64,000 nucleotides of DNA. Source: Phycisphaerales bacterium. GTDB taxonomy: Bacteria; Planctomycetota; Phycisphaerae; Phycisphaerales; UBA1924. The notes under the pieces are model-generated. The model saw nothing but the letters and a program-made list of their open reading frames with translations. It ran no database searches and was not told the origin of the DNA. The position numbers were made by a program, and so were the translations under genes. Every line of letters begins with the position of its first letter. Positions within the stretch are counted from its first letter, which is position 1. The stretch covers positions 248,001-312,000 of the forward strand of contig JAJDDJ010000018.1 of NCBI GenBank assembly GCA_029260395.1, read 5' to 3'. Positions 32,771 through 38,236 of this stretch are shown one piece after another.

Positions 32771-32850
32771 CGCACGGGGCGTCGATCGTGTCGATCGGCT
32801 GAGAAGCACCCGTAATCACCTGATCCGGGTCATACCGGCGGAGGGATGCG
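32771..32850 (+). promoter_or_regulatory. TPP riboswitch (THI element)
   Basis: Conserved pieces appear in order: ACGGGGC, GGCTGAGA, ACCCGTAATCACCTGATCCG and GGTCATACCGGCGGAGGGA, the hallmark of the thiamine-pyrophosphate aptamer. CGCA and TGCG at the ends can form P1. It lies directly ahead of thiC. The terminal GGAGGG (32840-32845) is also the only Shine-Dalgarno for the ATG at 32855, so ligand binding should hide it. Confidence 0.95.
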
Positions 32851-32854
32851 CACC

Positions 32855-34804
<1,950 letters not shown>

Positions 34805-34838: not shown

Positions 34839-36212
34839 ATGGCAAAGAAAAAGACCGTCACCGGCAAGAAGCCCGCGAACAAGGTCACTAAGAAGACCAC
34901 CAAGAAAACGGCCGAGAAGAAGACCGATACCAAGAAGGCTGCGCCTTCGCGGGCCGCGACCACACGCAGCCGCCCTTCATCGCTGCTTGATACGCGGGTG
35001 GTCTATTGCGGTGACAACCTCGAACAGCTCGCCAAGCTCCCGGACAACTGCATCGATCTGATCTACATCGATCCGCCATTCAACAGCAACCGCAACTACG
35101 AGGTCTTCTGGGGCGAGACGAAAGAGAAGCGGGCGTTCGAAGACCGCCACGCCAGCACGCAGGCGTACATTGACTACATGCGACCGCGCTGCGAGCAGCT
35201 CAAACGCGTACTCAAAAATACCGGCAGCTTCTACTACCACTGTGACTGGCACGCAAGCCATTATGTCAAGGTGATGCTTGATCAGATATTCGGCGCCAAC
35301 AATTTTCTCAACAACATTGTCTGGATGTATGGGCTTGGAGGAAGTTCAAAAAGGTATTTTCCGCGAAAGCATGACGATATCTTTTTCTATGCAAAAAAAG
35401 ATAGTGAAGCGCGTTATTTCGAACCTCCCATGACACCTGCAACTTCAAATCGTATGCAAGGACAGCTAAAAAAATGCCCAGATTACTGGGATATTCCTTC
35501 GCTCAACAACATGTCAAAAGAGAGATTAGGATACCCGACGCAGAAGCCGCTTGAATTACTTGAACGCATTGTGCAGGCCTCCAGCAAGCCAAATGATATC
35601 GTGCTCGACGCCTTCTGCGGCTGCGGGACGGCGCTGGTCGCAGCGCAGCAACTCGACCGGCAGTGGATCGGGATTGATATCTCGCCCACCGCCTGCCGGG
35701 TGATGGCTAAGCGGCTGCGCGATGTGTGCAAGATGCGAGAGAGCGAGCCCAACTGGCTTGCGCACAAGACCGATGCTTTTGTCGTCCGCGACCTGCCTTG
35801 GACGATCGAGAAGCTCCGCGAACTCCCGCCATTCGAGTTCGAGAACTGGGCGGTCATCGCGCTGGGCGGCATCCCAAACACCGTGCAAGTGGGCGACATG
35901 GGGATCGACGGGCGAATCTTTCCGGTCGGGACCAAGCCGGAAGACCACAAGTCGAACCTCGGGGCCAACATGTTCGCGGGCGACTGGTTCCCGGTGCAGG
36001 TCAAGCAGAAGGACAGGGTTGGCCGACCGGACATCGACCAGTTTGAGGCCGTCATGGAGCGAGAGGACCGCCAGCGGGGGTTCTTCGTCGCCTTTGGTTA
36101 CACCAGCGATGCGGAGCAGGAGACCGCGAACTTCCACAAGCGGAGCGGACGCATCATCAAGCTCATCACGGTTCAGGAGATACTGGACGAGCAGCACGTA
36201 CAGAAGATGTAG
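34839..36212 (+). CDS. beta-class DNA methyltransferase fused to an Mrr-like nuclease
   Basis: A 457-residue protein in three parts. Residues 1-48 are a Lys/Thr-rich basic tail (KKTVTGKKPANKVTKKTTKK). Residues ~52-290 are an N4/N6 amino-methyltransferase (PF01555-like): DTRVVYCGDNLEQLAKLPDN, IYIDPPFNSNRNYEVFWG (motif IV DPPF, residues 78-81), PTQKPLELLERI (motif X, residue ~234) and DAFCGCGTALVAAQQL (motif I, residue 257), i.e. the beta order. Residues ~330-457 look like an Mrr-type PD-(D/E)xK nuclease: VGDMGIDGRIF (Asp357), WFPVQVKQKDRVGRPDIDQF (Gln387, Lys389), GFFVAFGYTSDAEQE. The central segment (about 35205-35590) is much lower in GC than the ends. A restriction-modification role in one chain is inferred. 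Confidence 0.88.
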   Translation: MAKKKTVTGKKPANKVTKKTTKKTAEKKTDTKKAAPSRAATTRSRPSSLLDTRVVYCGDNLEQLAKLPDNCIDLIYIDPPFNSNRNYEVFWGETKEKRAFEDRHASTQAYIDYMRPRCEQLKRVLKNTGSFYYHCDWHASHYVKVMLDQIFGANNFLNNIVWMYGLGGSSKRYFPRKHDDIFFYAKKDSEARYFEPPMTPATSNRMQGQLKKCPDYWDIPSLNNMSKERLGYPTQKPLELLERIVQASSKPNDIVLDAFCGCGTALVAAQQLDRQWIGIDISPTACRVMAKRLRDVCKMRESEPNWLAHKTDAFVVRDLPWTIEKLRELPPFEFENWAVIALGGIPNTVQVGDMGIDGRIFPVGTKPEDHKSNLGANMFAGDWFPVQVKQKDRVGRPDIDQFEAVMEREDRQRGFFVAFGYTSDAEQETANFHKRSGRIIKLITVQEILDEQHVQKM

Positions 36213-36421: not shown

Positions 36422-38236
36422 ATGCCGCGACAGTACAAACCATCCGGACGGATCGGCCCAGCCTGCGCGGTCACGCTGCCGGTGGGGCTGGGGCTCGTTG
36501 CCGCGTCCGGGTTCGGGTATGGGGCGGTGGCGGCGGTCAACCCGTGGGGCATCGCTAACTCGGCCGCGTACCTTGCGGCGGTGGTCGCGGGGGCGATCGG
36601 ACTTCATTGGATGGTCAAGCTCGGCAAGCTTCGCAGCGTTGGGTGGGGCTGGCTCTACGGCCTCGCAGCAACGGGGGTGTTCGTGGGCGGCGGGTTTGTG
36701 GGCATCTGGCGGATCGAGTCGCCGGGTGATGCGTTCATGGCGTTCCACAGCGCGCGGCTGGGGACCGGGGTAACGATGTTTGGCGCGGGCTCGTGGGCGC
36801 TCGCTGGCTGGATGCTGGTGGCGGCGTGGGTGCTCGCGATATTGCTGGCGCTATTGGTGTGCGTGGGTGTGCCTTCCACGCATGCGGGCCGCCCGTTCTG
36901 CGAGTCGTGCGGTACGGGGGCGGCTGGCAAGCGGTGGTCGGGCAAGCTCACGAATCCATCGGCGGGCGGGATCGCTCGTGCGCGCAGCGAGAAGTCGCTC
37001 GATGCTGTGCTCGCGGTGATGCCCGGCTCGAGCGGGGCTTCGGAGCATCATTTGGTTGTGCGGATCGGGGCGTGCCGGTGTCTCGGGATGGCGACGGTGA
37101 CCGCCAAGGTGCTCGAGGCCAGCAACTCGACTGACCCGGGCACCGAGGTGGTCGAGGAGATGGCGGTGAGCCGGGGCGATCTGGAGCGGATCGAGGCCTG
37201 GCGTGCGCGCGCCCTTCCCCATTCGGCGGCGGTGCCGCAGCTTTCGATCAGGGTGCGCGAGCACACGCCGCTGGAGATCACGCCGGAGCTGCCCGCTGGC
37301 GAATCGCACCAGTGCTCGGTGCGTTGGGGCGGCGGGCCCTCGATGGATTCGTTTGCGGACAACGAGTACACCAAGGCGCTTCGCAAGCGGCTGGCGGACG
37401 GCGACTACCTCGCGGCGGAAGCGGCGATCCAGCAGATGCGGCACCCGTCTGACCGGGCGTATGTCGCTGAGGCGTGCGCGGACTGGCCCGAGCGGCCGAC
37501 GTGGCTCGATGAGTGGATCGAGGAGCGGCCCGACAGCGGGCTTGCGTACCTCGTGAGCGGTATCGGTCGGGTGCAGCAAGGCTGGAAGGCCCGGGGTGCG
37601 GGCTGGGTGCCCAAGAACTACGAGCAGTTTCAGGCCCACCTGCGCGATGCGGAGGCTCATCTTGTGCGCGCAGCAGAACTGCTGCCCAAGGACCCGACGT
37701 GCCGGGCTTGGATGCTCTACGCGGGCAAGGGCTTGGAATTGGGCATCGAAGAACAGCGGGCGCGGTTCGAGGAGGTGGAGCGCTGCTGCCCACGGCACCG
37801 GTCGGCGAACACGTTCATGCTTGATTCGCTGCTGCCTAAATGGGGCGGCTCGGAGGAGGATTCGCTGCGGTTCGCCCGCGAGCAGGCTCGATCGGCGCGC
37901 GCGGGCTCGGTCGCTCTGAGCGTGGTGGCGGAGGCTCACCTGCACGTTGGCTTTGATAAGGAGAAGGAGGCTGCGACGTACTGGGCCAAGCCGGACGTTG
38001 CCAGAGAGGTGCGCGAGGCCAACTCCAAGCTGTTCGGCAATAACGCGCACAAAGAGAACATGGACTCGCCGCGGACCCGCTCCATGTTTGCGTACATGCT
38101 CTGGAAAACCGGCCAGACGGATCTGGCCCGTCCGCATCTGGAGCGACTCGGTAAGTCCACGGCGTGGGGGCCGTTCAACCCGATACCGGGCACATCGGAC
38201 TCCTATGGCCGCGCTCGCAAGGCAGCGGGGCTTTAG
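36422..38236 (+). CDS. membrane protein with C-terminal TPR-like region
   Basis: A 604-residue protein. The first ~170 residues hold four membrane segments (ACAVTLPVGLGLVAASGFGY, SAAYLAAVVAGAIGLHWMV, WLYGLAATGVFVGGGFVGIW, LAGWMLVAAWVLAILLALLV). A short cytoplasmic part follows with CESCG and ACRC motifs. The C-terminal ~300 residues are helical and TPR-like: DYLAAEAAIQQMRHPSDRAY, AHLRDAEAHLVRAAELLPKD, TGQTDLARPHLERLGK. AGGAGCC precedes the ATG and a GGTAAGCT box sits about 30 bases upstream. No family is assigned; DUF4034-like helical domains are a possibility for the C-terminus. Confidence 0.78.
   Translation: MPRQYKPSGRIGPACAVTLPVGLGLVAASGFGYGAVAAVNPWGIANSAAYLAAVVAGAIGLHWMVKLGKLRSVGWGWLYGLAATGVFVGGGFVGIWRIESPGDAFMAFHSARLGTGVTMFGAGSWALAGWMLVAAWVLAILLALLVCVGVPSTHAGRPFCESCGTGAAGKRWSGKLTNPSAGGIARARSEKSLDAVLAVMPGSSGASEHHLVVRIGACRCLGMATVTAKVLEASNSTDPGTEVVEEMAVSRGDLERIEAWRARALPHSAAVPQLSIRVREHTPLEITPELPAGESHQCSVRWGGGPSMDSFADNEYTKALRKRLADGDYLAAEAAIQQMRHPSDRAYVAEACADWPERPTWLDEWIEERPDSGLAYLVSGIGRVQQGWKARGAGWVPKNYEQFQAHLRDAEAHLVRAAELLPKDPTCRAWMLYAGKGLELGIEEQRARFEEVERCCPRHRSANTFMLDSLLPKWGGSEEDSLRFAREQARSARAGSVALSVVAEAHLHVGFDKEKEAATYWAKPDVAREVREANSKLFGNNAHKENMDSPRTRSMFAYMLWKTGQTDLARPHLERLGKSTAWGPFNPIPGTSDSYGRARKAAGL

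Follow-up and report, generated by a model that had tools for sequence, protein, structure and literature searches.

Restriction-modification (R-M) enzymes that hold an endonuclease and a methyltransferase in one protein are classed as Type IIC. In enzymes of the MmeI, BpuSI and Eco57I kind, as far as the excerpted source goes, a mostly N-terminal PD-(D/E)xK nuclease is joined to a gamma-class methyltransferase and to a specificity module that is C-terminal or forms a separate subunit, and a change of specificity in Type IIC/IIG enzymes alters both activities at once (excerpt of the 2014 review PMC4081073). The same excerpt describes BtgZI as an exceptional Type IIC enzyme, with an N-terminal methyltransferase and a C-terminal PD-(D/E)xK variant carrying Q for E. 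Mrr-type nucleases with a PD-QxK site are known from EcoKMrr and MspJI, where they are paired with a winged helix and an SRA-like reader, respectively (passages of PMC12707154). Here, we analyse a gene at 34839..36212 on the forward strand of a 64,000-nucleotide stretch of a Phycisphaerales bacterium genome (hereafter, the window, meaning this whole stretch); the encoded chain carries a beta-class DNA methyltransferase and, at its C-terminus, an Mrr-type nuclease domain. We consider this chain likely to be a complete R-M enzyme, in which a single target recognition domain (TRD) would direct both the methylation of sites in the cell's own DNA and the cutting of unmethylated foreign DNA.

A methyltransferase, a variable TRD and an Mrr-type nuclease domain in one chain

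The open reading frame (ORF) is present and encodes 457 aa, with Pfam matches to N6_N4_Mtase (PF01555; residues 72-289, E 8.4e-52) and to Mrr_cat (PF04471; residues 347-449, E 4.4e-7), the latter being beyond chance because its 30.4 bits exceed the cut-off of 21. A preliminary description of this DNA had reported a methyltransferase and an Mrr-type nuclease on one chain, and this observation is confirmed by both matches and by the motifs, which lie where it placed them: DPPF at 78-81, DAFCGCG from D257, GDMGIDG at 352-358 (its second Asp being D357) and QVK at 387-389. From Pfam and the homologue alignment, the first half of the methyltransferase (residues 72-162; 35052..35324, all features being on the forward strand) carries the catalytic DPPF motif IV, and the second half (residues 227-298; 35517..35732) carries GYPTQKP and DAFCGCG, which we take to be the motif X region and motif I, the AdoMet site. 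Between them, the alignment and TRD comparison place a TRD of the YGLGGSS type, common to a stand-alone methyltransferase (residues 163-226; 35325..35516). Beta-class amino-methyltransferases are recognized by the order IV, TRD, X, I together with (D/N/S)PP(Y/F/W), and both this order and DPPF are found here. The best solved relatives of the methyltransferase are the N6-adenine enzymes M.BceJIV, CcrM and M.RsrI, which, together with the DPPF motif, suggest that N6-adenine is the target base.

The Mrr_cat-like PD-(D/E)xK nuclease domain (residues 331-449; 35829..36185), delimited from Pfam, structure models and a fold search, contains the predicted catalytic Asp357 (35907..35909) and Gln387-Val388-Lys389 (35997..36005), a PD-QxK variant. 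D357, Q387 and K389 are invariant in 78/78 sequences of an alignment (A2) that includes the window's protein and whose locus members were pre-picked with a D.G.DG filter, and the D..QxK pattern is present in 120/120 listed homologues, which were unfiltered and again include the window's own protein. Because the methyltransferase half filled the fold search of the whole protein, the nuclease was modelled separately; a PD-(D/E)xK fold was predicted, with MspJI and the modification-dependent AspBHI among the closest folds, the fold call being based on the VIA rows. The model thus agrees with the C-terminal PD-(D/E)xK core proposed earlier, and, given this prediction and the residue conservation, neither a different fold nor a loss of Asp357 or Lys389 among homologues was found. 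Both halves of the gene are under purifying selection.

The TRD is the most unusual part of the enzyme, being hypervariable in the alignment amid a near-constant backbone. The set compared combined 120 proteins with 84 ORFs from loci, 7 genes being present twice; 203 of these sequences were parsed, 186 of them distinct, with TRDs of 64-170 aa. Both flanking halves are >80% identical in 3817 of the 17205 pairs, and in 2217 of those 3817 the TRDs are <35% identical; TRDs are >60% identical in 542 pairs, 170 of which have C halves <70% identical. Three homologues (P0013, P0009 and P0008) share identities of 0.87-0.90 and 0.86-0.89 with the window's protein in the two halves and of 0.12-0.15 in the TRD. 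When TRDs were clustered by average linkage at 50%, the nearest backbone carried the same TRD class in 22/186 cases (shuffle mean 9.8, max 23), compared with 94/186 (shuffle mean 31, max 53) in a control matching C-half clusters at 80% to the nearest N half. Average linkage replaced single-linkage clustering at 50%, which had merged 113 of the 186 TRDs into one cluster and placed the nearest backbone in the same cluster in 78/186 cases (shuffled mean 69.7, max 90). TRD and backbone are mostly, although not wholly, uncoupled. Of the compact R-M enzyme without a separate specificity subunit that had been envisaged earlier, the one-chain fusion is supported, but the chain does possess a specificity module, namely, the TRD inside the methyltransferase.

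In the window gene, the GC content at third codon positions (GC3) is 0.36 in a single segment, compared with 0.82 elsewhere; the best fit places this segment at residues 164-244 (35328..35570; log-likelihood gain 32.1, the largest of 200 permutations being 10.5), with ends uncertain by tens of residues (start 135-167, end 220-254); the GC3 of four nearby genes is 0.83-0.86. Across 80 family loci (7 genes counted twice; L037 without its upstream part), TRD GC3 lies below that of the flanks in 77 (mean difference 0.157, SD 0.10); of these differences, that of the window gene (0.46) ranks first, followed by 0.38. As a control, 20 stand-alone methyltransferase genes with the YGLGGSS TRD show no such drop (mean -0.04; lower in 2/20). 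The GC3 step, taken with the family survey and the stand-alone control, makes it most likely that the window TRD came by recombination from a source of lower GC3.

These stand-alone beta-class methyltransferases, mostly of 240-290 aa, were found at 20 loci (L120-L139) of related genomes by searching with the window protein, TRD included, and were then kept by the YGLGGSS motif, so that the sample leans to similar TRDs; their mean identity to the window's protein is 0.61 in the TRD and 0.36 and 0.51 in the flanking halves, with TRD identity above both flanks in 20/20 loci. In an earlier pass, 19 of 22 stand-alone candidates were parsed, all with a TRD of the YGLGGSS type, and 3 were unparsable. 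In this comparison, the higher TRD identity could also reflect, instead of exchange, tighter conservation of a domain that serves a common DNA target; the within-family mosaic and the GC3 step are independent of the comparison. Pfam matches near two checked loci are to housekeeping genes, those for UDP-glucose dehydrogenase and asparagine synthase (L129:3985-4782) and for polyprenyl synthetase (L124:3991-4776), which suggests that the stand-alone form is a settled orphan methyltransferase in related genomes. The window's own genome, a single case with a 93% complete assembly, yielded no stand-alone copy, the best match to the stand-alone query being the fused gene. Mutual exclusion of the fused YGLGGSS type and the stand-alone form was ruled out by the L004 and L005 genomes, which hold both, their stand-alone relatives being 62-63% identical to the stand-alone query.

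Proposed function and its alternatives

The one-chain R-M reading draws on domain order, active-site residues, the nuclease fold prediction, purifying selection, the lack of a recurrent partner among the neighbouring genes surveyed, TRD variation and GC3. In such an enzyme, AdoMet-dependent methylation of the cognate site would protect the host, while the AdoMet-bound enzyme on an unmethylated site might recruit the nuclease domain of a second chain and cut at or near the site, and a methylated site would be left uncut. Recruitment of a second nuclease domain has been proposed for FokI as well as for Type IIC enzymes; for the latter, cutting by the nuclease domains of two chains is presumed (excerpt of PMC4081073). 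If both activities obey one TRD, as proposed, a single recombination within it could reprogram marking and cutting jointly and harmlessly, leaving no unmatched activities; the same excerpt makes this shared-specificity argument for Type IIG enzymes (PMC4081073).

Several points weigh against this reading, in which methylation, cleavage and recognition are all predicted from sequence and model. The confidence of the nuclease model is modest (pLDDT 73.6), and its top Foldseek rows are not nucleases but the RNA polymerase subunit RPB5, over ~70 columns; RPB5 has a restriction-endonuclease-like domain. A sequence profile of the nuclease gave only chance-level matches to solved structures. Furthermore, dN/dS is higher in the nuclease than in the methyltransferase, in a test made coarse by synonymous sites that are near saturation. 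Two of the five relatives scanned sit just under the Mrr_cat cut-off, and the precomputed Mrr_cat label is missing in 44 of the 120 listed homologues (present in 76). More distant relatives on viral contigs replace QxK by SVK (16/80) or EVK (2/80), and the relative in Streptomyces phage Hippo scores higher against NA-iREase1, whose name marks the family as inactive, than against Mrr_cat (56.7 and 31.2 bits, respectively). Finally, some association of TRD and backbone persists: the TRD class agrees with that of the nearest N half in 41/186 cases (shuffle mean 9.7, max 24), and with that of the nearest backbone in 21/186 at a 60% cut (shuffle mean 5.7, max 17) and in 20/186 at a 70% cut (shuffle max 17).

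The stronger constraint on the methyltransferase half, the branches with SVK for QVK and the NA-iREase1 matches, along with a stand-alone relative of the same TRD type in related genomes, would fit an orphan or regulatory methyltransferase, the Mrr-type domain of which no longer cuts and aids DNA binding or oligomerisation. However, the D..QxK residues, which ought to disappear from a degenerate domain, are kept by all 120 listed homologues, and purifying selection acts on the nuclease half; the retained active site opposes loss of nuclease function, and we regard this explanation as unlikely. The window protein itself scores below the NA-iREase1 cut-off (15.4 vs 27 bits).

The preliminary description had also offered a type IV-like regulator, with the nuclease reading the methyl mark placed by its own chain; for cutting at such a mark, we obtained no positive support. 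More broadly, the nuclease might cut methyl-marked DNA, either as a timed or regulated self-attack or as an attack on foreign marks. A PD-QxK site is found in the modification-dependent enzymes EcoKMrr and MspJI (passages of PMC12707154), and the closest folds to the nuclease model include MspJI and AspBHI. Methyl-dependent cutting is compatible with this fold, but would require protection from self-attack, given that an enzyme cutting its own product would hit the host at every site. Among the Pfam matches of the chain, moreover, there is no SRA reader and, up to E 1, no winged helix, residues 72-289 being occupied by the methyltransferase. Because an Mrr-like PD-QxK domain is also the nuclease of Type ISP R-M enzymes (excerpt of PMC3874165), the fold does not imply methyl dependence, and a type IV-like function appears improbable. 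The earlier interpretation is, overall, partly supported.

Distribution, neighbourhood and viral relatives

The architecture is not rare. A protein search scored a capped set of 7999 candidates, of which 7993 pass E 1e-3; the best 120 were listed, and the remainder need not all be fusions. The preliminary description knew of no named system with this exact architecture, and none was found here. Most of the best 120 homologues are 490-560 aa long (103; 10 are <480 aa) and, where named, are annotated as 'restriction endonuclease', 'DNA methyltransferase', 'DNA modification methylase' or similar; the nearest named ones come from Phycisphaerales and other Planctomycetes. In a genome-contig collection, a relative is encoded in 267/288 pattern matches, and the full fusion was parsed in 74 of the best 80 contig matches, with record titles that include Planctomycetota, Verrucomicrobia, Acidobacteria, Chloroflexi, Calditrichaeota and candidate phyla.

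Closer to the window's genome, 9 of 60 relatives encode the C-terminal part at 75% identity or more within a frame of 536 aa or longer. Short high-identity pieces of the fusion gene in three relatives (G039:C14, G043:C63 and G047:C48) look like broken copies or contig-end fragments. In a phylum sample, the nuclease half was matched at E 1e-10 in 4/294 genomes, two of them in long frames, one of which is the window's own. In the window, thiC (32846-34804) ends 34 bases before the fusion gene; in all 7 relatives that carry the fusion and that both searches reached (G001, G003, G007, G015, G020, G038 and G043), thiC was located on a different contig or, for G015, ~124 kb off, so the fusion gene is not fixed beside it. 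Downstream, the neighbour is a 604-aa ORF (36422-38236) with no Pfam match, and the next Pfam-matched ORFs encode a short-chain dehydrogenase, a glyoxalase, a glycosyl hydrolase and EPSP synthase. As for a partner gene, no family occurs in >4 flanks of related loci (71 loci with a downstream neighbour), as surveyed by crude longest-ORF calling, which can miss genes in GC-rich DNA. Through the same weakness, opposite-strand ORFs had displaced 14/20 stand-alone loci, which were redone with the gene fixed. Given the genome counts, the displacement of thiC and the non-recurrent flanks, the fusion gene has a patchy distribution, appears to be mobile and shows no recurrent partner.

These flanks bear on whether the chain could instead be a Type III-like Mod subunit of a multi-gene system, working only with a helicase or nuclease encoded elsewhere. 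Its structural relatives do include Type III Mod subunits (4zcf, 6k0w and 7dsu). Yet neither the window neighbours, thiC and an ORF without a Pfam match, nor the related flanks, as far as the crude ORF calling reaches, include an adjacent Res helicase-nuclease gene or a neighbour family recurring in >4 loci, and we consider a Mod subunit very improbable.

The basic, Lys/Ala-rich N-terminal tail (residues ~2-36; 34842..34946), which has low pLDDT, had been counted earlier among the joined parts of the protein. The basic stretch is real but, as the homologue alignment shows it to be variable, of low complexity and nearly absent in P0065, P0094 and P0119, it is not a domain, and the idea of a functional domain there was dropped.

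Relatives also occur on viral contigs, where 80 loci were kept out of 521 relatives. Their nuclease tails carry QxK in 40, SVK in 16 and EVK in 2, with no motif by pattern in 17 and 5 unparsed. SVK follows a kept D.G.DG in L144, L160, L188, L194-L199, L201, L204, L210-L212, L214 and L219, some of which are near-identical; these loci represent a second fusion branch, the nuclease activity of which is uncertain. One distant fusion of methyltransferase and Mrr_cat, in which SVK stands for QVK, is gene 48 of Streptomyces phage Hippo (L118:1628-3271; 547 aa), which has a serine integrase gene nearby; other Streptomyces phages carry similar genes. A Megaera plasmid gene (486 aa) is likewise a distant member with both Pfam domains and SVK for QVK. 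Compact fusion frames of 385-438 aa, stop to stop, are present on predicted viral contigs (L149-L155, L157, L159, L163-L165, L167 and L168) and are possibly superinfection exclusion or self-protection genes.

Comparison with known restriction-modification systems

We found no named match for this layout, nor a description of TRD exchange in a nuclease-bearing chain of this layout, in the open-licence literature, REBASE and subscription journals lying outside the search. The sole paper found with both Pfam accessions lists them in separate table rows (passages of PMC7251935), and PMC4389544 deals with a Type IIG enzyme fragment. TRD exchange itself is no new principle, because TRDs of Helicobacter pylori Type III Mod proteins are known to move between non-orthologous genes via recombination at conserved methyltransferase motifs (excerpt of PMC3983042). 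In H. pylori, exchange involves a gene for a Type III methyltransferase, whereas here the nuclease is on the TRD chain and one TRD holder is a family of stand-alone methyltransferases.

A broader proposal, which we hold to be conceivable although slightly more doubtful than probable, is that of a widespread, apparently undescribed one-gene R-M family, with a mobile TRD cassette that also circulates among chromosomally settled stand-alone methyltransferases, and which travels on viruses, so that one recombination rewrites mark and cutting and could convert a housekeeping specificity to restriction or the reverse. If the fusion enzyme works as predicted, marking and cutting would both be set by one exchangeable segment of 64-170 residues in a compact natural enzyme. 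The family would then provide a natural set of variants from which to work out the TRD code of beta-class methyltransferases, as well as new restriction specificities in compact form, and it would point to a testable way for methylomes and restriction barriers to change in one step. The shared backbone is recognisable in Planctomycetes, Verrucomicrobia, Acidobacteria, candidate phyla and predicted viruses.

Among described enzymes, the Mrr_cat nuclease with its D...QxK site is of the type seen in Type IV Mrr, and EcoKMrr, MspJI and AspBHI share this kind of PD-(D/E)xK nuclease; however, the N-terminal winged-helix reader of EcoKMrr is absent, and the nuclease is paired with a methyltransferase instead. 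Type ISP enzymes (LlaGI and LlaBIII) have an N-terminal nuclease, a gamma-class methyltransferase and, between the two, a DNA-translocase domain that the fusion enzyme lacks (457 aa, no such Pfam match). RM.Eco29kI, a restriction enzyme fused to its methyltransferase, works as one chain and is classed as Type IIC (excerpt of PMC3039593) but, compared by description only, is engineered rather than natural. With the gamma-class Type IIC/IIG enzymes, the fusion enzyme shares a single chain in which both activities are expected under one specificity module. It differs from them, and from Type IIG in the narrow sense, in having a beta-class (DPPF) methyltransferase first, a TRD in the middle of the methyltransferase and an Mrr-type nuclease last. 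BtgZI is alike in domain order and in the Q-for-E active site, but has an alpha-class methyltransferase, the comparison being by description only. At the domain level only, the fusion enzyme has the endonuclease and methyltransferase of Type IIC in one protein, and its combination of a beta-class methyltransferase with a C-terminal Mrr_cat domain would be a third Type IIC layout, beside the gamma-class and BtgZI layouts.
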